DNA of 64,000 nt from Acidovorax sp. 1608163. Its GTDB lineage: Bacteria > Pseudomonadota > Gammaproteobacteria > Burkholderiales > Burkholderiaceae_C. Shown in pieces: positions 41,308 to 55,281 of this stretch. The notes beneath the pieces are model-generated. The model had not been told where the DNA came from. It searched no databases and worked only from the letters and a program-made list of their open reading frames with translations. The stretch is from NCBI RefSeq assembly GCF_003669015.1, contig NZ_CP033069.1, positions 3,420,501 to 3,484,500 on the forward strand, in the 5' to 3' direction. The position numbers and the translations under genes were made by a program. How positions within the stretch are numbered: the first letter of the stretch is position 1; each line of letters starts with the position of its first letter.

Positions 41308-42168
41308 ATGTCTACCCGCAAACAACTCAAGCAACTCGTCGAAGCCCGCAACGGCCTGATCGTGCCTGGCGCTTTCAACGCCCTCTCCGCCAAGGTGATT
41401 GCCGACCTGGGCTTTAAAGCCATCTACGTGACGGGCGCAGGCGTGACCAACATGTGGTTCGGCATGCCCGACCAGGGCTTCATAGGCCTGCACGAGATTG
41501 CCGACCACACGGCCCGCATCCGCGACGCCGTGGATGTGCCGCTGATCGTGGACGCCGACACCGGCTTTGGCAATGCCCTGAACGTGGTGCACACCGTGCG
41601 CACGCTGGAGCGTGCCGGGGCCGACTGCATCCAGCTTGAAGACCAGGTGGCGCCCAAGCGCTGCGGGCACTTCAGCGGCAAGGAGGTCATCAGCACCGAA
41701 GAGGCCGTCAGCAAGATCAAGGCGGCAGTGGACGCACGGCGCGACCCAGACTTCCTCATCATGGCGCGCACCGACGCTGCCGCCACGCACGGCTTTGAGG
41801 CGGCGGTGGAGCGCGCACAGAGGTTTGCCGAGGCGGGGGCCGACATCCTGTTTGTAGAGGCGGTGACCCAAGCCGAAGAAGTGCGCGCCCTGCCCCAGCG
41901 GTTGCACAAGCCCCAGTTGATGAACATGGTGATTGGCGGCAAAACGCCCCTCTTCAACGCCGACCAGCTGGGCGAGCTGGGCTACGGCATCGTGCTGTAC
42001 GCCAATGCGGCGCTGCAGGGCGCAGTGATGGGCATGCAAAACGCGCTGACCACGCTGCGCGACGCCAAGGAAGTGCGCGAGGACAGTGGCCTCGTCACCC
42101 CGTTTGCAGAGCGCCAGCGCCTGGTCGGCAAGCCTGCGTGGGACGCGCTGGAAAAGCGCTACACCTGA
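41308..42168 (+). CDS. prpB: 2-methylisocitrate lyase
   Basis: PrpB cleaves 2-methylisocitrate into pyruvate and succinate, closing the cycle. It is 286 residues, a TIM barrel of the isocitrate lyase superfamily. Visible motifs are VPGAFNALSAKVIADLGFKA, VPLIVDADTGFGNALNVVHT with metal-binding acidic residues, the active-site LEDQVAPKRCGHFSGKEV (KRCGH), and DFLIMARTDAAATHGFEAA. It is the last gene of the cluster. Only 100 bp separate it from the convergent ABC ATPase gene, and I see no clear terminator there. Confidence 0.96.
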   Translation: MSTRKQLKQLVEARNGLIVPGAFNALSAKVIADLGFKAIYVTGAGVTNMWFGMPDQGFIGLHEIADHTARIRDAVDVPLIVDADTGFGNALNVVHTVRTLERAGADCIQLEDQVAPKRCGHFSGKEVISTEEAVSKIKAAVDARRDPDFLIMARTDAAATHGFEAAVERAQRFAEAGADILFVEAVTQAEEVRALPQRLHKPQLMNMVIGGKTPLFNADQLGELGYGIVLYANAALQGAVMGMQNALTTLRDAKEVREDSGLVTPFAERQRLVGKPAWDALEKRYT

Positions 42169-42267: not shown

Positions 42268-43593
42268 TCAGGCTGACGCATCATCTCCTGCAGGCAAGCG
42301 CATGACCCTTGTGCGCGCGTCATATTCAAACACCTCCCCGTGGCGTGCCCAGGTGATGGCGGTGCGCAGCACACGTTCGGCCTCTGCGTCTCCATGCTGC
42401 TCACTCAGCAGGTGCAAGAAGGGCTCTTCGCGCAGCTCACCTGTCGGCTCCTGCTCCAGGCTGTGGCGAATGTGTGCCACCAACGGAACGTGGGCCAGCA
42501 ATTGCTGCCCGAAAATGTCTTGTCGCAGGCTGTGGCTGCCCTCCACATAGCGACGGCCCAGCGGGGTCATCTGCAAGTCGCCACCCGCCAGCGTTGCCAG
42601 CCCCAGCTGTGCCACTGCATGGGCCAGAGGCAGCAGCTCCGCATCGGTCAGGCTGGTTTCCTCAGCCAGCTGCGGCAGGTCCGCACGGCCATCGAAGGGC
42701 GGCTCGGCCAAGAGCTCCAACAACCCGTCCATGCGCACCACGTCTGCGGCGGGCAGGCGGTCGGTCAGCAGGGCGAGTTCTTCCGGCTGCTCGGTCTCGG
42801 CATCACCGGGTGTGGCGCCATGGCGTGTGGCACCGGCGGTCATGAACGCGTAGACCTCATCGATCAGCGCACGCACGTGGGCGCTGTCTGCGTTGCGGGG
42901 TCTTGGCAGCTGGATCGCCAGCTGAAAGCGGATGCGGCCCGGGTCGCTCGCGAAGATCAGCACACGGTCGGCCATCATCACGGCCTCTTCAATGTTGTGC
43001 GAGACGACGAGCATGGCTTTGGTGGGCATGGTGCCACTGCGCCACAACTGCAAGATGTCTTCACGCAGGCGTTCGCCAGTCAATACGTCCAGGGCAGAGA
43101 AGGCCTCGTCCATCAACAGCACGTCCGGCTCGGTCACCAGCGCGCGGGCAATGCCCACACGCTGGCGCATGCCGCCCGACAGCTCCCGTGGCAGCGCCCC
43201 TTCAAAGCCCGCAAGGCCAATCAAGCCGATGGCCGCAGCCACCCGCGCGTCGCTCTCCACCTGCGGCACACCGCGCGCCTCCAGCCCCAGCGCCACGTTC
43301 TGCTGCACCGTGAGCCAGGGGAACAAAGCAAACGACTGAAACACCATGCTGATCGCGCGCGCAGGACCGTGCAACGGTTGCCCGCGGTATTGCACGTCCC
43401 CCTGGTCGGCGGGCACCAGGCCAGCCATGATGCGCAGCAAGGTGCTCTTGCCCGAGCCCGACTGGCCTAGAAGCGCGACGATCTCGCCTTCCTTCAGGGT
43501 GAAGTCCACGCCATGCAATACGGGCCGCTCTCGGCCGTCTGAAGAGCGAAAGGTTTTCCCAACGCCTCGAAGTTCAATGATGGATTGCGTCAT
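42268..43593 (-). CDS. ABC transporter ATPase with C-terminal AAA-associated domain
   Basis: This is a 441-residue ATPase of the nitrate/sulfonate/taurine-type importer family. The nucleotide-binding half (about 1-250) has Walker [20 protein letters not shown], signature LSGGMRQRVGIARALV, Walker B DVLLMDEAFSALD and H-loop LVVSHN. About 180 further residues form a C-terminal domain of the AAA-associated type (AEETSLTDAELLPLAHAVAQ, GDLQMTPLGRRYVEGSHS, DIFGQQLLAHVPLVAHIR), probably regulatory with a winged-helix-like fold. It is 43 bp downstream of the double permease gene. No binding-protein gene is linked. Confidence 0.88.
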   Translation of the reverse strand: MTQSIIELRGVGKTFRSSDGRERPVLHGVDFTLKEGEIVALLGQSGSGKSTLLRIMAGLVPADQGDVQYRGQPLHGPARAISMVFQSFALFPWLTVQQNVALGLEARGVPQVESDARVAAAIGLIGLAGFEGALPRELSGGMRQRVGIARALVTEPDVLLMDEAFSALDVLTGERLREDILQLWRSGTMPTKAMLVVSHNIEEAVMMADRVLIFASDPGRIRFQLAIQLPRPRNADSAHVRALIDEVYAFMTAGATRHGATPGDAETEQPEELALLTDRLPAADVVRMDGLLELLAEPPFDGRADLPQLAEETSLTDAELLPLAHAVAQLGLATLAGGDLQMTPLGRRYVEGSHSLRQDIFGQQLLAHVPLVAHIRHSLEQEPTGELREEPFLHLLSEQHGDAEAERVLRTAITWARHGEVFEYDARTRVMRLPAGDDASA

Positions 43594-43636
43594 GGTGGCA
43601 GCAGTTGCGGTCTTGTGCGGTCTTTTCCCTGGGGCG

Positions 43637-45373
43637 TCAGAAATGCATGCGGTCTTCCGCCAAGCGGTAGAGCCTTCGCCACAGGAAGTGGTTCAGTCCC
43701 ATGACGAACACCACCATGGCGCCAATGCCCAGCGCGATGCGAGGAAAGTCGCCGCTGGCCGTCATCTGGGCGATGTAGCTGCCCAGGCCTTGGGCCTGCA
43801 AGGTGGTGTCACCCCAGGTCACATATTCGGCCACGATGCTGGCGTTCCATGAGCCACCACTGGCGGTGATGGCCCCTGTCACAAAGCTGGGAAATACGGC
43901 GGGCAAGAGGTAACGCTTCCAGCGCAGCCAGCCCTTGAGGCCCAGGTTTTGCGCGGCCAGGCGCAGTTCGTTCGGAATGCTGGAGGCCCCGGCAATCACG
44001 TTAAAGAGGATGTACCACTGCGTCCCCAGGATCATGAGTGGCGAGAGCCATATGTCGGGGTCCAATTTCCAGTGCACCATCAGCATCACGGCAATCGGAA
44101 AGAACAGATTGGCAGGAAACGCTGCCAGAAACTGCGCCACCGCCTGCAAACGCCCAGACCAGCGCGGGCTCATGCCCACCCACACCCCAATAGGCACCCA
44201 CACCAGCGCCGCCAGCGCAATCAGCACCAGCACGCGGACCAGCGTGTAGCCACCCAGGACGAAGACATGTGCCACCTCAGTCCAGCCCACCTCGGTGTGC
44301 ACAAACTGCACCAACCGCGCCACGGCAAACAGCACACAAGCCGCCAACAACGCATCCCACACCCGCTCGGCCCTGGTAGAGACTGCGCGTGGTCTCGCGC
44401 GGATCGAGGTGCCGTCGTAGCTGCGCCGAAACCAGCCCAAGGTGCGGCCCAACAACCGTTGCCCGCCCCCCGCCAGGCTCTGCACGGCATGTGCGCGGCG
44501 CAGCCAGCTCAACAGCCAGGAGCGCGGTGCGGCATCGGCGCCGCTTTCTTCGAAACGAAACTTGTCGGCCCACGCCACCAGTGGCCTGAACAGCAACTGG
44601 TCATACAGCAAGATGGCCACCAGCATGCAGCCAATGGCCCAGCCGATGGCACCCAGATCGCGGGCCTCAATGGCCAGCGCAATGTAGGAGCCCACACCAG
44701 GCAGCTTGATGTCCTGGTGCGAAACGGAAATGGCCTCGGAGGCGACCACAAAGAACCAGCCCCCGGACATTGACATCATCATGTTCCACAGCAGTCCTGG
44801 CATGGCGAAGGGCAACTCCAGGCGCCAAAACCGCTGCCAGCCCGACAACTGGAACACGCGCGCTGCTTCCTGCAGTTCTGCAGGCACCGTGCGCAGCGAC
44901 TGGTACAGACTGAACGCCATGTTCCAGGCCTGTGAAGTGAATATCGCAAAGATGGCTGCACACTCCACCCCCAGCAAGCTGCCGGGAAACAAGGCAATGA
45001 ACCCTGTCACGGTAATGGACAGGAAGCCCAGGATGGGAATGGACTGCAATATGTCCAGCAATGGCACCAGCACGCGCTCGGCCCAGCGGTATTTGGCCGC
45101 CAGCACGGCAAACACGGCGCTGAAAATCAGTGCCGCCCCCATGGCGATGAACATGCGCAGCGTGGTGCGCAGCAGGTAGTAGGGCAGTTGCCAGGGATCG
45201 AGCGACAGCGGCAGCGTGTCGCCCATTTGAAAGGGCTTGGCCATCTGCGCCGCACCATAGGCCAGCACCACCACGACGGCGAGCACCAAGGGCAACAAGG
45301 CCCAGTCCCAGCGATTGGGCGACGCCTCCACTATCTGGCGGGGAAGAAACTCACGGCGTCGGGGCTGAGTCAT
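43637..45373 (-). CDS. ABC transporter permease with two fused BPD domains
   Basis: This is an inner-membrane permease of 578 residues. The start at 45373 (MTQPRRREFLPRQIVEASPN) avoids a long non-hydrophobic upstream frame. It contains two complete permease domains in tandem, each with about six helices and an EAA-type loop (LQEAARVFQLSGWQRFWRLE near 190, RLAAQNLGLKGWLRWKRYLL near 490). The joint is a charged linker of about 80 residues (SWLRRAHAVQSLAGGG, SIRARPRAVSTRAERVW). Fusing the two halves into one chain is less common in this family than a homodimer. It pairs with the ATPase gene 43 bp downstream. Confidence 0.85.
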   Translation of the reverse strand: MTQPRRREFLPRQIVEASPNRWDWALLPLVLAVVVVLAYGAAQMAKPFQMGDTLPLSLDPWQLPYYLLRTTLRMFIAMGAALIFSAVFAVLAAKYRWAERVLVPLLDILQSIPILGFLSITVTGFIALFPGSLLGVECAAIFAIFTSQAWNMAFSLYQSLRTVPAELQEAARVFQLSGWQRFWRLELPFAMPGLLWNMMMSMSGGWFFVVASEAISVSHQDIKLPGVGSYIALAIEARDLGAIGWAIGCMLVAILLYDQLLFRPLVAWADKFRFEESGADAAPRSWLLSWLRRAHAVQSLAGGGQRLLGRTLGWFRRSYDGTSIRARPRAVSTRAERVWDALLAACVLFAVARLVQFVHTEVGWTEVAHVFVLGGYTLVRVLVLIALAALVWVPIGVWVGMSPRWSGRLQAVAQFLAAFPANLFFPIAVMLMVHWKLDPDIWLSPLMILGTQWYILFNVIAGASSIPNELRLAAQNLGLKGWLRWKRYLLPAVFPSFVTGAITASGGSWNASIVAEYVTWGDTTLQAQGLGSYIAQMTASGDFPRIALGIGAMVVFVMGLNHFLWRRLYRLAEDRMHF

Positions 45374-45580
45374 GGGAAGGCCAACAGCAAGCCTTGGCCA
45401 CACCGAGGGATTCGACTGTGCGCCGGGCACCGGATGGTACGCGTTTTCACGCGGTTCATGGGGGTCGGCGGCGCTACCGCTACGGAGTCCGTGCATCGCA
45501 TGGTGCCACCCGCCTGAGCCGACTTGATCCGTCCATCCGACAAAACGGCTCGCACTTAAAAAACGCTCGCTACGGGAGAC

Positions 45581-45613
45581 ATGTCACACCCAGGTCACAC
45601 CCATGTCACACAA
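45581..45613 (+). promoter_or_regulatory. Putative Pho box: three 11-bp direct repeats
   Basis: ATGTCACACCC, AGGTCACACCC and ATGTCACACAA repeat with an exact 11-bp period. The period and TGTCA core match PhoB binding sites (CTGTCAT-type heptamers every 11 bp). They end 11 bp before a -10-like hexamer, as activator sites at -35 do. The spacers are more GC-rich than in enterobacterial Pho boxes. Confidence 0.55.
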
Positions 45614-45623
45614 GCGCGGCCCA

Positions 45624-45639
45624 ATGTAATCGATTACAT
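45624..45639. promoter_or_regulatory. Perfect 16-bp LacI-family operator overlapping a -10 hexamer
   Basis: ATGTAATCGATTACAT is a perfect palindrome centred on CG, as LacI/GalR-family operators are. TGTAAT within it matches the -10 consensus at five of six positions, so bound repressor would block the promoter. It lies 17 bp before the regulator start. Confidence 0.75.
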
Positions 45640-45655
45640 CAGGCCCAGGAGCTGC

Positions 45656-46672
45656 GTGAATATCCAGGATGTTGCCCAGGCTGCGGGCGTTTCGGTCGCT
45701 ACGGTCTCGCGGGTTTTCAACCTGCCGGACAAGGTCACACCCGCCACGCGTGCGCATGTGGCACAGGTGGCCCGCACCCTGGGCTACCAGCCCAATGCCA
45801 GCGCCCGCACGCTGCGCACGCAGCGCAGCCGCGTCGTGGGCGTGGTGCTGCCCACCCTCACCAACCCGGTCTTTGCCGAATGCCTTGAAGGCATTGCCCG
45901 CGCTGCGGCTGCGGCGGGCTACGCCATCTTGCCCTTCACCACCGACTACCGGCTGGACCAGGAAGAGCGGGCGGCGTCCCTGCTCATCGCGGGCAATGTG
46001 GACGGGATGATCCTGACCGTGTCCAACCCCGGCACCTCTCTGGCGCTGCGCCGCTTGGCAGACACGGGCCTGCCCTATGTGCTGGTCTACAACCGGCATG
46101 CCGAGCACCCCTGCGTGTCGGTGGACGGCGAGCAGGCCGTGGCCGAACTGGTGGCGCGCCTTGCGGGCCTGGGCCACCGGCGCATCGCCATGGTGACGGG
46201 CCAACTCCACGCCTCAGACCGCGCGCAGCAACGCTGCCGGGGCTTTCAGCGCGGCATGGCGCAAGCAGGGCTGGGCGATGGCACCAGTGCCACGGTGCTG
46301 GAGGTGCCCTTTGTGGACACGGCCATCCAGTCCATCTGCGGCCTGCTGCAAGCCCGCGAACGCCCCACCGCACTGGTGTGCTCCAACGACCTGCTGGCCA
46401 TCCGCGCGCTGCGCAGCGCCCATTTGGCGGGCCTGTCGGTGCCGCGCGATGTGAGCGTGGTGGGCTTCGACGGCATTGCGCTGGGCGAAGACCTGGCGCC
46501 GCAGCTGAGCACCGTGGCCCAACCCAATGCCGACCTGGGCCACGCCAGTGTGGAGCTGCTGGTGCAAGCCATGGCCAACCAGGCGCTGCTGCCTGCCCAG
46601 GCCAGCTTGACGCTGCCGCATGCCTGGCGTGCGGGCGAATCGTGCGGCCAGGCACCCAAAGGCTCTGCCTGA
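45656..46672 (+). CDS. LacI-family transcriptional regulator
   Basis: This is a 338-residue repressor. The GTG start at 45656 has AGGAG just upstream and opens on the DNA-binding domain (VNIQDVAQAAGVSVATVSRV, NLPDKVTPATRAHV), including the hinge (YQPNASARTLRTQRS). Residues 60-330 form a periplasmic-binding-protein-like effector domain (VVGVVLPTLTNPVFAECLEG, VCSNDLLAIRALRSAHLAGL, VSVVGFDGIALGEDLAP). A perfect palindrome before the gene is probably its own operator. The transporter genes follow 52 bp later on the same strand, so it likely regulates their expression and its own. Effector unknown; LacI proteins usually sense sugars or nucleosides, which would fit a glycerol- or nucleoside-bearing phosphodiester. 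Confidence 0.92.
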   Translation: MNIQDVAQAAGVSVATVSRVFNLPDKVTPATRAHVAQVARTLGYQPNASARTLRTQRSRVVGVVLPTLTNPVFAECLEGIARAAAAAGYAILPFTTDYRLDQEERAASLLIAGNVDGMILTVSNPGTSLALRRLADTGLPYVLVYNRHAEHPCVSVDGEQAVAELVARLAGLGHRRIAMVTGQLHASDRAQQRCRGFQRGMAQAGLGDGTSATVLEVPFVDTAIQSICGLLQARERPTALVCSNDLLAIRALRSAHLAGLSVPRDVSVVGFDGIALGEDLAPQLSTVAQPNADLGHASVELLVQAMANQALLPAQASLTLPHAWRAGESCGQAPKGSA

Positions 46673-46724
46673 CAACCGAGATTTCTCATTCACCTTTTTT
46701 CCCTCAACCCACGGAGCTTCTTCC

Positions 46725-47738
46725 ATGCGTTCCATGCTGCCTTCCCTCTTGCGCACCACAGCGCTGGCCATTGGCCTCACCGCCTCCACCCTGGCCATGG
46801 CCCAGACGGCCATTTGCTACAACTGCCCGCCCGAATGGGCCGACTGGGGCAGCCAGATCAAGGCCATCAAGGCCAAGACGGGCGTCACCGTGCCGCCTGA
46901 CAACAAGAACTCGGGCCAGTCGCTGGCGCAGCTGGTGGCCGAGAAGGCCCGCCCCGTGGCCGACGTGACCTACCTCGGCGTCACCTTCGCCATCCAGGCG
47001 CAAAAGGACGGCGTGGTGGGCAGCTACAAGCCCGCCGCCTGGGCCGATATCCCTGACGGTCTCAAGGACCCCAACGGCCAGTGGTTCACCATCCACTCAG
47101 GCACCCTCGGCTTCATGGTCAATGTCGATGCGCTCAAGGGCAAGCCGGTGCCCACATCGTGGGCCGATTTGCTCAAGCCTGACTACAAGGGCCTGATCGG
47201 CTACCTGGACCCCGCCTCGGCCTTCGTGGGCTATGTGGGCGCCGTGGCCGTAAACCAGGCGCGCGGCGGCACTCTGGACAACTTTGCCCCGGGCATCGAC
47301 TACTTCAAGGCACTGCAAAAGAACGAGCCCATCGTGCCCAAGCAGACCTCGTATGCCCGCGTGCTGTCGGGCGAGATCGCCATCTTGCTGGACTACGACT
47401 TCAACGCCTACCGCGCCAAGTACAAGGACCAGGCCAATGTGCAGTTTGTGATCCCTGCCGAAGGCACGGTGGTGGTGCCCTATGTGATGAGCCTGGTGGC
47501 CAACGCCCCGCACGAGGTCGATGGCAAGAAGGTGCTGGACTTTGTGCTGTCGGACGAAGGCCAGGCCATCTGGGCCAATGCCTACCTGCGCCCGGTGCGT
47601 GCAGCGGCCATGCCCAAGGAGGTGCAGGCCCGCTTCCTGCCCGCCAGCGAATACGCCCGCGCCAAGACGGTGGACTACCAAAAAATGGCCACCGTGCAAA
47701 AGGCGTTCTCTGAGCGCTATCTGAAGGACGTGCAGTAA
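46725..47738 (+). CDS. ABC transporter substrate-binding protein
   Basis: This is a periplasmic binding protein of 337 residues. Residues 1-26 are a signal peptide (LLRTTALAIGLTASTLAMAQ). The mature protein belongs to the family 1 extracellular solute-binding group used for iron, polyamines, thiamine and phosphonates (NSGQSLAQLVAEKARPVADV, GTLGFMVNVDALKGKPVPTS, ADLLKPDYKGLIGYLDPASA). Its C-terminal lobe includes LSGEIAILLDYDFNAYRAKY. Its first permease partner starts 51 bp later. Context with a phosphodiesterase suggests a phosphorylated ligand. Confidence 0.9.
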   Translation: MRSMLPSLLRTTALAIGLTASTLAMAQTAICYNCPPEWADWGSQIKAIKAKTGVTVPPDNKNSGQSLAQLVAEKARPVADVTYLGVTFAIQAQKDGVVGSYKPAAWADIPDGLKDPNGQWFTIHSGTLGFMVNVDALKGKPVPTSWADLLKPDYKGLIGYLDPASAFVGYVGAVAVNQARGGTLDNFAPGIDYFKALQKNEPIVPKQTSYARVLSGEIAILLDYDFNAYRAKYKDQANVQFVIPAEGTVVVPYVMSLVANAPHEVDGKKVLDFVLSDEGQAIWANAYLRPVRAAAMPKEVQARFLPASEYARAKTVDYQKMATVQKAFSERYLKDVQ

Positions 47739-47789
47739 GCCGCTGCGGCCACTGCCTTCAGCGACCTCCTCTTGCAATCTGCCATCGCC

Positions 47790-48604
47790 ATGCGCTCCGG
47801 CTTTGCTCCTTCCCGCACGCTGCTGCTGGCCTGCGCCGCACCGGCGGCGGCCTTCTTTGCCGCGTTCTGGCTGCTGCCGGTGGCGCGGCTGCTGGCGCTG
47901 CCCGCCCACCAAGGCTGGGCCACGTACTTTGCCGTGCTCAGCCATGGCCGCTATCTGCAAAGCCTGCTGCAAACGCTGGGCCTGTCCATCGTGGTCACCC
48001 TGGCCACGCTGGTGCTGGGGCCCTGGTGGGCATCACGCTGGCACGCCAGCGGTTTGCGGGGCGCAGGCTGCTGTTGTCGCTGCTCACGCTGCCGCTGTCG
48101 TTCCCGGGGGTGATCGTGGGGTTCTTCATGATCTTGCTGGGCGGGCGCCAGGGCGTAGTGGCGGACCTGTCTGCACACCTGGGCGGCGAGCGAATCACCT
48201 TTGCCTACGGGCTTGCGGGCTTGTTCCTGGCGTACCTGTACTTCTCGCTGCCCCGCGCCATCACCACCTACACCGCGGCCGCCGAGGCCATAGACGCGCA
48301 GCTGGAAGAGGCCGCGCGCTCTCTGGGCGCATCGCGCTGGCGTGTGGCGCGCGACGTGTGGATGCCCGAGCTGGCCCCCACCACGCTGGCCTGCGGTGCC
48401 ATCGTGTTCGCCACAGCCATGGGGGCGTTTGGCACAGCCTTCACGCTGGCCAGCAAATTTGAGGTGCTGCCCATCACCATTTACAACGAATTCACCAACT
48501 ACGCCAACTTTGCCCTGGCGGCCAGCCTGTCGATTGCGCTGGGGCTCATCACCTGGTTGGTGCTGTGGCTGGCGCGCCGCGTGGGCGGCAAGGAGGCGTT
48601 TTGA
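47790..48604 (+). CDS. ABC transporter permease 1, interrupted by a one-base frameshift
   Basis: This is an inner-membrane permease, about 271 residues after correction. The first part (MRSGFAPSRTLLLACAAPAA to TLGLSIVVTLATLVLG) and the remainder (ALVGITLARQRF...) lie in different frames that join if the G4 run at 48017-48020 is read as G5. The result has six helices and a permease EAA loop (LEEAARSLGASRWRVARDVW). As written the first fragment would end near 48113. The end overlaps the second permease start (TGATG). The same type of error in other genes argues against true inactivation. Confidence 0.85.
48017..48020. other. Homopolymer G4, probable site of a missing base
   Basis: Adding one G (or one C in the adjoining CCC) restores a continuous permease frame. 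Confidence 0.75.
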
Positions 48605-49419
48605 TGTCTACCCCACCCAACGCCTACAAAGCCCGCCAGGCCCCCTGGCTGCTCATCGCGCTCACCACGCTGGTGGCTATTTTCATGCTGGCGCCCATCG
48701 CCTTGTCGGTGATGACGGGGCTGGTGGTCAACTACAGCAAGGGCCTCGCCAGCGGGCTCACCACACGCTGGCTCGCCGAGGTGTGGGAGCTCTACGGCGG
48801 CACGGTGGGTGCATCGCTGTGGCTTGCGCTGCTGTGCGTGGCAGGCAATTTGCTGCTGGGCGTGCCCTGTGCCTACGCTCTGGCACGCAGTCCATCGCGC
48901 GCGGCGCGGTGGTTTGAAGAGCTGCTCACCCTGCCCGTGGCGGTGCCGGGCCTGGCCAGCGCGCTGGCGCTCATCCTGGTCTATGGCCAGCTTGCGGGCT
49001 TTCGCCAAAGCTTCGCCTTCATTCTGGTGGGCCACATGGTGTTCACGCTGCCCTTCATGGTGCGCACCGTGGGCGCGGCGTTTCGCAAGGGGGAGCTGCG
49101 CGCGCTTGAAGAGGCTGCACGCTCGCTGGGGGCCAGCTTTGCACAGCGCTTTTTGGGCGTGCTGGTGCCCGCCGTGCTGCCCGCTATCGTGGCAGGCAGC
49201 CTGATGGTGTTCACGCTGTCGGTGGGCGAATTCAACCTTACGTGGATGCTGCACACGCCGCTCACCCGCACTCTGCCCGTGGGCCTGGCAGACAGCTATG
49301 CCTCCATGCGCATCGAAATCGGATCGGCCTACACGCTGGTCTTCCTCATCGTCATCCTGCCCGTGCTCTGGGGCCTTCAGGCCATCGGCGCCCTCATCGA
49401 AAAACACCATGGAACTTGA
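48604..49419 (+). CDS. ABC transporter permease 2
   Basis: This is an inner-membrane permease of 271 residues with six predicted helices (LLIALTTLVAIFMLAPIALS, SLWLALLCVAGNLLLGVPCA, LLTLPVAVPGLASALALILV, FAFILVGHMVFTLPF and others). The EAA loop is LEEAARSLGASFAQRFLGVL, followed by the GEFNLTWML turn typical of phosphonate/iron-type permeases. It starts inside the stop of permease 1 (TGATG) and overlaps the ATPase gene by eleven bases, so all transporter subunits are tightly coupled. Confidence 0.92.
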   Translation: MSTPPNAYKARQAPWLLIALTTLVAIFMLAPIALSVMTGLVVNYSKGLASGLTTRWLAEVWELYGGTVGASLWLALLCVAGNLLLGVPCAYALARSPSRAARWFEELLTLPVAVPGLASALALILVYGQLAGFRQSFAFILVGHMVFTLPFMVRTVGAAFRKGELRALEEAARSLGASFAQRFLGVLVPAVLPAIVAGSLMVFTLSVGEFNLTWMLHTPLTRTLPVGLADSYASMRIEIGSAYTLVFLIVILPVLWGLQAIGALIEKHHGT

Positions 49420-50494
49420 ACGCACGCGCGTGGACATCGTCCAGTGCGCCAAAACCTATGCCGACGGCACACGCGGCCTGCAGCCCACCGACCTGGTGGT
49501 GGAGCCCGGCGAAGTGCTCGCGCTGCTCGGCCCCTCGGGCTGCGGCAAGACCACGCTGCTGCGCCTGATTGCGGGGCTGGAAGCCCCCGATGCGGGCAGC
49601 CGCATCGCCTTTGGCGGCAACGATGTGACGCAGTTGCCCATTGAGCAGCGCGGCGTGGGCATGGTGTTCCAGCACTACGCGCTGTTTCCGCAGATGAGCG
49701 TGGAGGCCAACATTGGCTACGGCCTCAAGATCCGCGGAGTGGCCGAAGACGAGCGCAGCCGCACGGTGGGCGAGCTGGTCGACCTGGTGCGCCTGAATGG
49801 CCTGGAGAAAAAACGCCCCGCCGAACTATCGGGCGGCCAACGCCAGCGCGTGGCCCTGGCCCGCGCCGTGGCCGTGCGCCCGCGTGTGCTGCTGCTGGAC
49901 GAACCGCTCACCGCGCTCGATGCCAAACTCAAGGAATCGCTGCGCGACGAGCTGGCCGAGCTGCTGCGCCGCCTGCACATCACCGCCATCCACGTCACGC
50001 ATGACCAGCAAGAAGCCCTGGCCATTGCCGACCGCCTGGCCGTGATGCGTGCGGGCCGCATCGTGCAAGTGGGCGATGGCGAGACGCTGTACCGCACCCC
50101 GGCGCACCCGTTTGTGGCGGCCTTTTTGGGCAAGGTGAATCGCCTTGAACGCAACGCCGCCGCCCGCGACCGCCAAGTGCTGCCCCTGGGCGGCATCGAC
50201 CTGCCCTGCACTGCATCCTGCCAAGGCCTGGACACCTTGCTAGCGCGCCCTGAAGACCTGGAAGTGGCCCTGGACACCACAGGCGACGCATTCACCATGG
50301 CCTGGGGCCGTGCCGAGGTGGTTCAGCGCAGCTTTCTGGGCGACCGCGTACAGCTCAGCCTGCGCGTGGCCGACCAAAGCGCCCTGCTGCACGCCGATGT
50401 GGCCCGCGACCACCCTGCACGCACGGGCGACACCGTCGGCATCCGCATCCACCCAGAACGCCTCATGCCCTTGGCCGAGGAATCCACGCAATGA
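49409..50494 (+). CDS. ABC transporter ATPase
   Basis: This is the importer ATPase, 361 residues. Walker A LLGPSGCGKTTLLRLIAGL, Q-loop MVFQHYALFPQMSVEANI, signature LSGGQRQRVALARAVAV, Walker B VLLLDEPLTALDAKLKESLR and H-loop IHVTHDQQEALAIADR are intact. The last ~110 residues form a TOBE-type domain (VAAFLGKVNRLERNA, LLARPEDLEVAL, AEVVQRSFLGDRVQLSLRVA), as in spermidine, iron and phosphonate importers. The start at 49409 overlaps permease 2; the stop overlaps the phosphodiesterase start (ATGA). Confidence 0.94.
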   Translation: MELERTRVDIVQCAKTYADGTRGLQPTDLVVEPGEVLALLGPSGCGKTTLLRLIAGLEAPDAGSRIAFGGNDVTQLPIEQRGVGMVFQHYALFPQMSVEANIGYGLKIRGVAEDERSRTVGELVDLVRLNGLEKKRPAELSGGQRQRVALARAVAVRPRVLLLDEPLTALDAKLKESLRDELAELLRRLHITAIHVTHDQQEALAIADRLAVMRAGRIVQVGDGETLYRTPAHPFVAAFLGKVNRLERNAAARDRQVLPLGGIDLPCTASCQGLDTLLARPEDLEVALDTTGDAFTMAWGRAEVVQRSFLGDRVQLSLRVADQSALLHADVARDHPARTGDTVGIRIHPERLMPLAEESTQ

Positions 50495-51338
50495 CCACCA
50501 CCTTGCTGCTGCAACTGTCCGATCTGCACATCCGCGAGCCAGGCCGCCTGGCCTATGGCCGCATCAACACGGCACCGTACCTGCAGCAGGCGGTGCAGAG
50601 CATCACCCGCCTGCCCCAGCGCCCCGATGCCGTGGTCATCACCGGCGACCTGACCGACTTTGGCCGCGCAGCCGAGTACGACCACTTGCGCGCCCTGCTG
50701 GCCCCGCTGGGGTCCATGCCCATCTACCTGCTGCCGGGCAACCACGACGACCGCAGCCAACTGCGCGCCAGCTTTCCAGAACACGCCCATTACCTGGGCA
50801 ACCACCTCGGTCACGACGGGTTTGTGCAATACAGCGTGCCCGTGGGTGACCTGCAATTGATTGCGCTGGACACCGTGGTGCCCAGGGCCAGCACCGGCAG
50901 CCTGTGCGCCCAACGCCTTGCGTGGCTGGAGGCCGAGCTGGAACGCCAGAGCCACCGCCCCGTGGTCATCGCCATGCACCACCCACCGTTTCAAACACTG
51001 ATCGGCCACATGGACCACATTGGCCTGCTCGAAGGCGCCCAGGCGCTAGAGGCCATCGTGGCCCGCCACCCCAACGTCGAACGCGTCATCTGCGGCCACC
51101 TGCACCGCAGCATCCAGGTGCGCTTTGGCGGCACCATCGCATCCACCGTGCCCGCCCCGCGCACCAGGTCAGCCTGGACCTGTCGCCGCAAGCGCCATCC
51201 ACCTGGATGCTGGAGCCCCCAGGCTTCGCCATCCACGCCCTGCCACACGGGTCGCGCATGGTGTCTCATCTGGCAGCCAGTGGGTCATTTGAAGGGCCGT
51301 TCCCCTTCCATGAGCCGGATGGGCAGCTTATCGATTGA
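50491..51338 (+). CDS. GpdQ/CpdA-like metallophosphoesterase, interrupted by a one-base frameshift
   Basis: This is a binuclear metal phosphodiesterase of about 282 residues after correction. Metal-binding motifs are in order: LLQLSDLHIREPG (DxH), VVITGDLTDFGRAAEYDHL (GDxxD), YLLPGNHDDRSQL (GNHD), VVIAMHHPPFQTL and RVICGHLHRSIQ (GHxH). The layout matches the glycerophosphodiesterase GpdQ and cyclic-nucleotide phosphodiesterase CpdA group; no signal peptide is visible. The frame breaks after ASTVPAP at the C4 run 51155-51158. Reading C5 gives AHQVSLDLSPQAPSTWMLEP and the normal end PFPFHEPDGQLID. Coupled to the ATPase gene, it would hydrolyse an imported diester in the cytoplasm. Confidence 0.85.
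51155..51158. other. Homopolymer C4, probable site of a missing base
   Basis: One more C joins ASTVPAP to AHQVSLDLSPQ in the phosphoesterase gene. Confidence 0.7.
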
Positions 51339-51431: not shown

Positions 51432-51521
<90 letters not shown>

Positions 51522-51544: not shown

Positions 51545-52204
<660 letters not shown>

Positions 52205-54143: not shown

Positions 54144-54424
54144 ATGAAGAGAGTGCGATACCCGGCTGAGTTCAAGGCAGAAGCCGTCAAACAGGTGACC
54201 GAGCGTGGTCATGGGGTAGTGGATGTAGCCAAGCGATTGGGCATGTCGGACAAAAGCCTGTACCTGTGGGTGCGGCTTGCCAAAGAGCAATCGAGCGCAG
54301 GGGGGCAGAGACAAGCCAGCTCAAGGCCGAGGTATCCCGGCTCAAAGCGGAGCTCAAAAGGGCCAATGAGGAGCGCGACATCCTAAAAAAGGCCGCAACG
54401 TACTTTGCCAAGCTGTCCGGGTGA
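54144..54424 (+). CDS. IS3-family transposase OrfA, interrupted by a one-base frameshift
   Basis: OrfA carries the helix-turn-helix that recognises the inverted repeats (KRVRYPAEFKAEAVKQVTER, VDVAKRLGMSDKSLYLWVRL), then a leucine-zipper-like coiled coil (LKAEVSRLKAELKRANEERD, ILKKAATYFAKLSG). The two halves are in different frames and join if the G6 run at 54300-54305 is read as G7, giving about 93 residues. An A6G slippery heptamer at 54385-54391 is placed where IS3 elements shift -1 to make the OrfAB fusion. The stop overlaps the OrfB GTG. Confidence 0.85.
54300..54305. other. Homopolymer G6, probable site of a missing base
   Basis: Reading G7 joins SSAGG to AETSQLKAEV in OrfA. Confidence 0.75.
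54385..54391 (+). promoter_or_regulatory. A6G slippery heptamer for -1 frameshifting
   Basis: AAAAAAG near the end of orfA, the standard IS3-family recoding signal that yields the OrfAB transposase. Confidence 0.75.
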
Positions 54425-55281
54425 AGTACGCATTCATGGCCGAACATAAAGGCCAGTTCCGGCTCAGCAGCATGTGCCGCGTTCTGCGCGTACAGCGCAG
54501 TGGCTATTACGCTTGGAAGGCCAATCCAAAGTCCAAACGCGCCTTAGCCGACGATGTCTTGCTGGCAAGCATTCGGCAATCCTTTGACGACAGCCACGGG
54601 ATTTATGGAAGCCCACGCATCCTGCGGGACTTGCGAGAGGACGGTATGGCGTGCGGTCAAAAACGTGTAGCACGCCTGATGCGCCAGGCCCAACTGCGCT
54701 CAGTGCGTGGTTACAAGCGGCCACGCTACCGAGTCGGTCTTCCTGCGACTGCCGCACCGAACCGGTTGCAACGTGAGTTCACGGTCACGCTACCGAACCA
54801 AGTGTGGGTCACCGACATTACCTATATCCGAACCCATGAGGGCTGGTTGTACCTAACGGCCGTAATTGACCTGTACTCGCGCATGGTGGTCGGCTGGGCG
54901 ATGAACTCCAGCATGGCTACAGAGTTGGTGTTGGATGCGCTCACGATGGCAGTGTGGCGCAGGCGCCCAACGGGTCCAGTGATGATCCATTCCGACCAAG
55001 GAAGTCAGTTTGGCAGTGACGACTTCGCCCGCTGGTGCAAGGACAACCAATTGGTGCCAAGCATGAGCCGACGTGGAAACTGTTGGGACAACGCGGTAGC
55101 AGAGTCCTTCTTCAGCAGCTTGAAGAAGGAGAGAATCAAACGCCATATCTATGCCACCAGGCAAGACGCCAAGTCAGATGTGTTTGACTACATCGAAGGT
55201 TTTTACAATCGAATCCGTCGGCACAGTCACCTAGACCAACTGAGTCCGCTGGCATTCGAACAACTTCGAAACGGAAGTTGA
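54421..55281 (+). CDS. IS3-family transposase OrfB (DDE integrase core)
   Basis: This is a 286-residue catalytic subunit. An N-terminal HTH_21 region (RALADDVLLASIRQSFDDSH, GIYGSPRILRDLR) precedes the rve domain. The DDE residues are visible in VWVTDITYIRTHEGWLYLTA (first Asp), VMIHSDQGSQFGSDDF (second Asp) and NCWDNAVAESFFSSLKKE (Glu). It starts with GTG overlapping the OrfA stop and is normally made as an OrfAB fusion after -1 frameshifting. It appears intact, so the element could still be active once OrfA is confirmed. Confidence 0.95.
   Translation: MKYAFMAEHKGQFRLSSMCRVLRVQRSGYYAWKANPKSKRALADDVLLASIRQSFDDSHGIYGSPRILRDLREDGMACGQKRVARLMRQAQLRSVRGYKRPRYRVGLPATAAPNRLQREFTVTLPNQVWVTDITYIRTHEGWLYLTAVIDLYSRMVVGWAMNSSMATELVLDALTMAVWRRRPTGPVMIHSDQGSQFGSDDFARWCKDNQLVPSMSRRGNCWDNAVAESFFSSLKKERIKRHIYATRQDAKSDVFDYIEGFYNRIRRHSHLDQLSPLAFEQLRNGS

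Follow-up and report, generated by a model that had tools for sequence, protein, structure and literature searches.

In the genome of Acidovorax sp. 1608163, a stretch of 64,000 nucleotides (the window; G000:C1:3420501-3484500 of the complete 5.05-Mb genome) contains six same-strand genes that encode a LacI-type regulator, a binding protein, two permeases, an ATPase and a calcineurin-like phosphoesterase. Promoter and protein sequences make it likely that these genes form a self-contained phosphorus-scavenging operon under dual PhoB-LacI control, whose products would import a phosphodiester and cleave it in the cytoplasm. Dual control, diester import and cytoplasmic cleavage had been proposed in an earlier note on this DNA, and they are supported by the promoter, by sites of PhoB type next to phosphate genes elsewhere in this genome, by phosphate-related neighbours in several other genomes and by the GpdQ-like fold of the esterase. 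The finding is real, conserved and functionally coherent, and the note was right in outline.

Promoter repeats and operator upstream of the lacI-type gene

Upstream of the lacI-type gene, the tetranucleotide GTCA is present on the forward strand at positions 45583, 45594 and 45605, i.e., with an 11-bp period. This in-phase triple is the only one in the window on either strand and did not occur in 30 mononucleotide shuffles. The three repeats, which the earlier note had taken to be exact, read ATGTCACACCC, AGGTCACACCC and ATGTCACACAA; their number and period stand, while their letters differ. The promoter was compared with those of 63 of 80 close loci (closest relatives within Acidovorax and other Comamonadaceae), namely the ones that keep the lacI-type gene; the resulting 64 promoters come from close kin and hence are not independent. 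In 51 of the 64 promoters (shuffle mean 0.02, maximum 1) the strict form GTCA-N7-GTCA lies no more than 60 bp 5' of the operator (see below), and this conservation together with the shuffles led to the rejection of a chance origin of the repeats. The two repeats of this form start exactly 30 and 19 bp 5' of the operator in 45 promoters and lie 4-5 bp farther from it in six; the strict form is missing from 13. Information content amounts to 1.0-1.7 bits in the GTCA columns and to 0.1-0.5 bits in the six columns between the repeats. The distal third repeat keeps strict phase in no promoter of this set but that of the window.

The repeats are followed by the palindrome ATGTAATCGATTACAT, which is perfect over 16 bp as the earlier note had claimed and which, like operators of the LacI family, is CG-centred and located near a promoter. 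Perfect 16-bp palindromes are not rare per se (three within the window), so the weight of the putative operator rests on conservation and uniqueness: its columns are near-invariant across the compared promoters, and at up to one mismatch it is the single such site in the genome. The protein encoded immediately downstream matched PF00356 (N-terminal helix-turn-helix; 63.2 bits) and PF13377 (a domain resembling periplasmic binding proteins; 105.5 bits), both above the cut-offs. Its recognition helix varies with the operator, GVSRATAARA being paired with TGAGATC in seven of seven cases and GVSVATVSR with TGTAA in 38 of 42, in a comparison that omits 26 proteins outside the pattern and is uncorrected for kinship.

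The hexamer TGTAAT inside the palindrome (45625-45630) had been proposed as the -10 element, a placement that is probably wrong. Six Paracidovorax loci have the operator 4-5 bp farther from the repeats but keep T(C/T)CAAT 15 bp after the second GTCA, and three loci of another family of the same order (L165, L167, L180) have GATAAT at this +15 position. In the window the corresponding hexamer is CCCAAT, a weak -10 match, which is probably the -10 element, with TGTAAT probably serving as part of the operator only. Counting against this placement, the mean match to TATAAT over 52 sites is 3.94/6 at +15 vs 4.10/6 at +20, where the TGTAAT of the operator is located; scores being so alike, only the shifted and the distant loci tell the two positions apart. 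With the -10 element at 45620-45625 the transcription start would fall inside the operator, and the repressor would block initiation directly.

A genome scan for TGTCAY-N5-TGTCAY, a check of the kind suggested in the earlier note, revealed five perfect sites, which are associated with a GlpQ-type gene (scoring below its profile cut-off), ppk1, pstS, ppk2 (with the site at the 5' end of the called frame) and a gene for a PAS protein. By eye, position +15 is occupied by TAGAGT at the GlpQ-type gene, AATACT at ppk1 and TAGAGT at pstS, and by the poor hexamers CAGCAT and TGGCCG at ppk2 and the PAS gene, respectively. The window's promoter, like those of its close relatives, shows what is expected of a Pho-regulon member, namely tandem PhoB-type heptamers with an 11-bp period, correctly spaced before a -10 element (a weak one in the window), in a genome that encodes PhoB and carries the motif at known phosphate genes. 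A one-mismatch PhoB-type site was also seen 5' of a NadN-like gene (L119, G000:C1:4039500-4042500; 325 bits, cut-off 436), which is a possible further member of the regulon.

The occurrence of the promoter among relatives was assessed with a composite score combining two boxes and a -10 element. At p<=0.05 it was reached by 62 of the 64 close lacI-type loci and by nine of 16 testable close loci without the lacI-type gene (17 in all). Among distant loci, the figures were 16 of 27 with the lacI-type gene (three plasmid loci included) and none of four without it.

The six-gene module and its genomic context

The order of the six genes on one strand was confirmed, as was the overlap of the last four, which amounts to 1, 11 and 4 bp. 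In this assembly two frames are interrupted, by sequencing error or by real change, namely those of permease 1 near 48020 and of the esterase near 51160. For permease 1 the domain match covers the C-terminal part, the N-terminal part being read separately. A relative (G033) with about 95% identity over the cassette carries intact copies of both genes.

Features of the operon and its promoter (window coordinates)
Feature	Position	Strand	Basis
Three tandem 11-bp PhoB-type repeats	45581..45613	+	Sequence inspection; proximal two conserved among relatives
Proposed -10 hexamer CCCAAT, 15 bp past last GTCA	45620..45625	+	Spacing kept in relatives
Putative LacI-type operator, perfect 16-bp palindrome	45624..45639	+	Conserved; one genomic site at <=1 mismatch
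LacI-family repressor gene, GTG start	45656..46672	+	PF00356, PF13377
Periplasmic binding protein, SBP_bac_6	46725..47738	+	Profile and structure comparison
ATP-binding cassette (ABC) permease 1; frame broken near 48020, intact in G033	47790..48604	+	
ABC permease 2	48604..49419	+	Profile match
ABC ATPase with TOBE domain	49409..50494	+	Profile match
GpdQ-like metallophosphoesterase; frame broken near 51160, intact in G033	50491..51338	+	

The binding protein was detected at E<=1e-60 in 16 of 60 relative genomes and, phylum-wide, at E<=1e-45 in 33 of 398, the genome under study being included in the former count. Thirty of the phylum-wide matches (again including its own) share at least 62% identity and three share 33-40%, with none listed at 41-62%. 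Twenty-eight of the 29 other loci with at least 62% identity were examined (G042 was omitted). Twenty-three of these have all six genes; four loci lack the lacI-type gene and one (L173) lacks the esterase. Among the 80 close loci, 61 are complete, 15 are without the lacI-type gene (five of them at a contig end) and three are cut by a contig end. In L035 the binding protein (84% identical) stands alone, the flanking 9 kb in both directions containing neither transporter nor esterase. Three of the close loci (L042, L054, L072) come from Variovorax paradoxus, a species with the full promoter and an intact cassette.

Phosphate-related genes adjoin the cassette in several genomes. On a plasmid of Roseovarius sp. 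Pro17 it is located on the same strand about 120 bp after pstC-pstA-pstB-phoU-phoB, and the annotation of its first gene says no more than substrate-binding domain protein. Of the 76 close loci with both binding protein and esterase, 46 have a gene for a Na/Pi cotransporter downstream on the same strand, which reflects the shared synteny of one group and not independent events; a PhoU domain was present in the one representative checked. Further examples, chosen because they looked telling, come from loci without the repressor: L090 lies near PehA, PhnC- and PhnD-type genes and a HAD phosphatase, L051 near a gene of the DUF1045 family and near frames weakly matching LpxH and diglucosyl-diacylglycerol synthase, and in L030 the cassette precedes a CpdB-type gene.

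In many relatives the cassette lies between ileS and the Na/Pi cotransporter gene, so that it has probably moved in the present genome; here ileS and the cotransporter gene are close together without the cassette at L184 (G000:C1:3405471-3410834), about 57 kb before the cassette of the window. Similarity to G033 ends near 51954, hinting at the edge of a rearrangement immediately past the operon. This region comprises a tRNA-Ser gene with anticodon CGA (51432-51521, reverse strand) adjoining what is, by eye, the 3' part only of serS (about 51570-51954), and, likewise by eye, a transposase-like integrase frame of the IS3 type (54421-55281, forward strand) near the edge. Directly upstream of the operon, genes for a nitrate/sulfonate-type ABC ATPase and a long fused permease are divergently oriented (42268-45496, reverse strand; by eye); similar ABC genes occupy the same place upstream of the cassette in L169. 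Next to these, a frame resembling a protein of the isocitrate-lyase/phosphoenolpyruvate-mutase family was noted by eye (41308-42168, forward strand).

Neighbouring open reading frames (ORFs) of up to 700 residues were collected from 36 selected loci, most of which do not belong to the main synteny group; of the resulting 124 some may be shadow ORFs. GGDEF was found in four of them. Diguanylate cyclase genes with GGDEF are located after the cassette in L163 (2743-4341, reverse strand) and L166 (2662-4320, reverse strand).

Esterase, ligand and activator

For the esterase, the G033 copy of which was modelled, GpdQ was the best match in both sequence and fold, including the C-terminal region. GpdQ of Enterobacter aerogenes (PDB 3d03, 2dxl) aligned over nearly the full length with template modelling scores of 0.88-0.92 and 32% identity, and thus is only about one third identical to the window's enzyme. 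The metal motif D-x-H, GD, GNHD, H, GHxH is invariant in 46 aligned esterase sequences, and all its parts lie 5' of the frame break in the window.

The binding protein groups with binders of sugar phosphates, pyridoxal phosphate (PLP) and aminoethylphosphonate. Its nearest relatives with structures of known ligand bind hexose phosphates, PLP or 2-aminoethylphosphonate, and AfuA, VcA0625, STM0429 and P5PA are 24-27% identical to it. With an inferred residue offset of 2, the phosphate-contacting Ser37 of AfuA corresponds to an invariant Ser63 and Thr150 to Val168, while the sugar-contacting His205, Asp206 and Glu229 map to Asn, Ala and Val and hence are not kept.

The cargo might be a phosphonate or a phosphomonoester, such as 2-aminoethylphosphonate or a sugar phosphate, with the esterase acting on a different compound or as a broad phosphatase. 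The ligands of the related structures fit this reading, as do the PhnC- and PhnD-type genes near L090, the DUF1045 gene near L051 and the matches of binding protein and ATPase to the PhnS and PhnT2 families. The latter stay below the cut-offs, and filing as a PhnS-type system was rejected (119/310, 102/395, 75/393, 265/499 and 344/458 bits for the PhnS, phnS2, PhnT and PhnT2 profiles). We consider this alternative unlikely, given that a GpdQ-like diesterase is the constant partner of the transporter in the complete loci as well as in those without the lacI-type gene, that the sugar-contacting residues of AfuA are, on the above mapping, not kept and that the cassette contains no C-P cleaving enzyme.

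A system for cyclic nucleotides or nucleotide fragments, importing 2',3'-cyclic nucleoside monophosphates or RNA fragments under a CytR-like regulator, is very improbable. The best NCBIfam names, SpdA (a 2',3'-cyclic nucleoside monophosphate diesterase) and CytR, and the CpdB-type gene after the cassette in L030 point in that direction, but both scores are far under the cut-offs (SpdA, 143/400 bits in the window and 159 for the G033 copy; CytR, 193/436 bits), GpdQ is the better full-length match for the esterase, and the 124 neighbour ORFs show no recurrence of nucleoside genes.

Several results weigh against an operon for phosphodiester scavenging under PhoB. No catabolic family recurs among the 124 neighbour ORFs, in which TctC was the commonest (6/124); the glycerophosphodiester that the earlier note had offered as a ligand accordingly did not find support. 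Full-length Rv0805 also aligns well with the esterase, and GpdQ and its relatives are promiscuous, so that the fold leaves the substrate unfixed. In the genome scan, sites with up to one mismatch were only about twice as frequent as in the reversed control (41 vs 21), and each of the window's two overlapping repeat pairs carries one mismatch. Finally, no PhoB-like promoter was seen at p<=0.05 in nine of 12 loci from other classes (L168, L170-L173, L175-L178 and the alphaproteobacterial L185, L186 and L189), and none in six loci from within the class (L156-L160, L174); p<=0.01 was missed by nine of the same 12 loci and by seven of 12 more distant same-class loci sampled. In view of these failures in distant loci, PhoB control is not claimed for the module everywhere: on the promoter comparison, support is good in the window and among its close relatives and partial in the rest of the class.

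The modest excess over the control, along with 70 matches to the PhoB profile in the genome, only one of which (4.6 kb past the pstS site) exceeds the curated cut-off, would also fit binding of the GTCA repeats by another OmpR-family response regulator, which is hardly probable because the motif is shared with pstS, ppk1, ppk2 and the GlpQ-type gene, three of the five perfect sites (the other two do not) have a -10-like hexamer at the same 15-bp spacing, and the Roseovarius cassette adjoins phoB.

Proposed mechanism and related systems

In the proposed phosphorus-scavenging operon, PhoB would bind the tandem GTCA repeats under phosphate limitation and recruit RNA polymerase to the poor -10 element. 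The operon's own LacI-family protein, bound to the single operator over the predicted start, would block transcription until it binds an inducer, so that both signals would be needed. The binding protein would then capture an organic phosphodiester in the periplasm and the ABC transporter would import it intact. The GpdQ-like di-metal enzyme, presumably cytoplasmic, would cut the diester into a phosphomonoester and an alcohol, from which general phosphatases would free phosphate. Regulators of the LacI family mostly respond to sugars, sugar phosphates, nucleosides or nucleobases (PMC4052901). A plausible candidate for the inducer is therefore a diester of a sugar or polyol, or the product of its cleavage.

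Organic phosphate diesters constitute a large and poorly charted source of phosphorus, and from so compact and conserved a combination of importer, esterase and dedicated repressor it should follow that these bacteria seek one particular diester. More tentatively, and with slightly less than even confidence, the module may represent a new route, spread over several classes of Pseudomonadota, for the import of one such natural diester in intact form, with the repressor acting via a single operator that overlaps a PhoB promoter. The diester would perhaps be a sugar or polyol compound of plant or algal origin, sensed as such or as its product, and control would amount to an AND gate as in the acc operon (see below) built from other protein families. 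The repressor-operator pair could act as a sensor for the diester. As a caution, other phosphorus compounds may be the cargo of SBP_bac_6 transporters whose annotation names iron or aminoethylphosphonate. What appears new is the conserved composite PhoB-LacI promoter with one operator, the occurrence of the six-gene module across classes and its phosphate-related neighbours. No description of the six-gene module was recognised in the literature searched, an absence that is weakly supported as subscription literature was mostly beyond reach.

Two further systems deserve mention. Delftia PdeA is a class III phosphodiesterase of a strain grown on phosphodiesters (PMC4320098). In Phaeobacter sp. 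MED193, the products of MED193_11288-11308, among them a binding protein, an ATPase and a phosphodiesterase by prediction, were raised in phosphorus stress (PMC10132767). The latter genes are likened to the present ones by description only; judged by locus tags their order differs, and the transporter is annotated as one for sugars.

The closest working parallel is, by analogy, the acc operon of pTiC58 (AccR, AccA, AccBCDE, AccF, AccG), which combines a repressor, an ABC importer and a phosphodiesterase for a phosphodiester, as the operon described here is proposed to do. The likeness is one of logic: AccA and AccR are of different protein families from the window's binding protein and repressor, and acc in addition has a phosphatase, AccG, and is linked to plasmid transfer. 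The acc operon, which serves agrocinopine, is activated by its ligand together with phosphate limitation, and its inducer is the cleavage product and not the diester (PMC4086400, PMC4526662). By the same logic, the operon in the window could be induced by a cleavage product of the diester that it is proposed to import.

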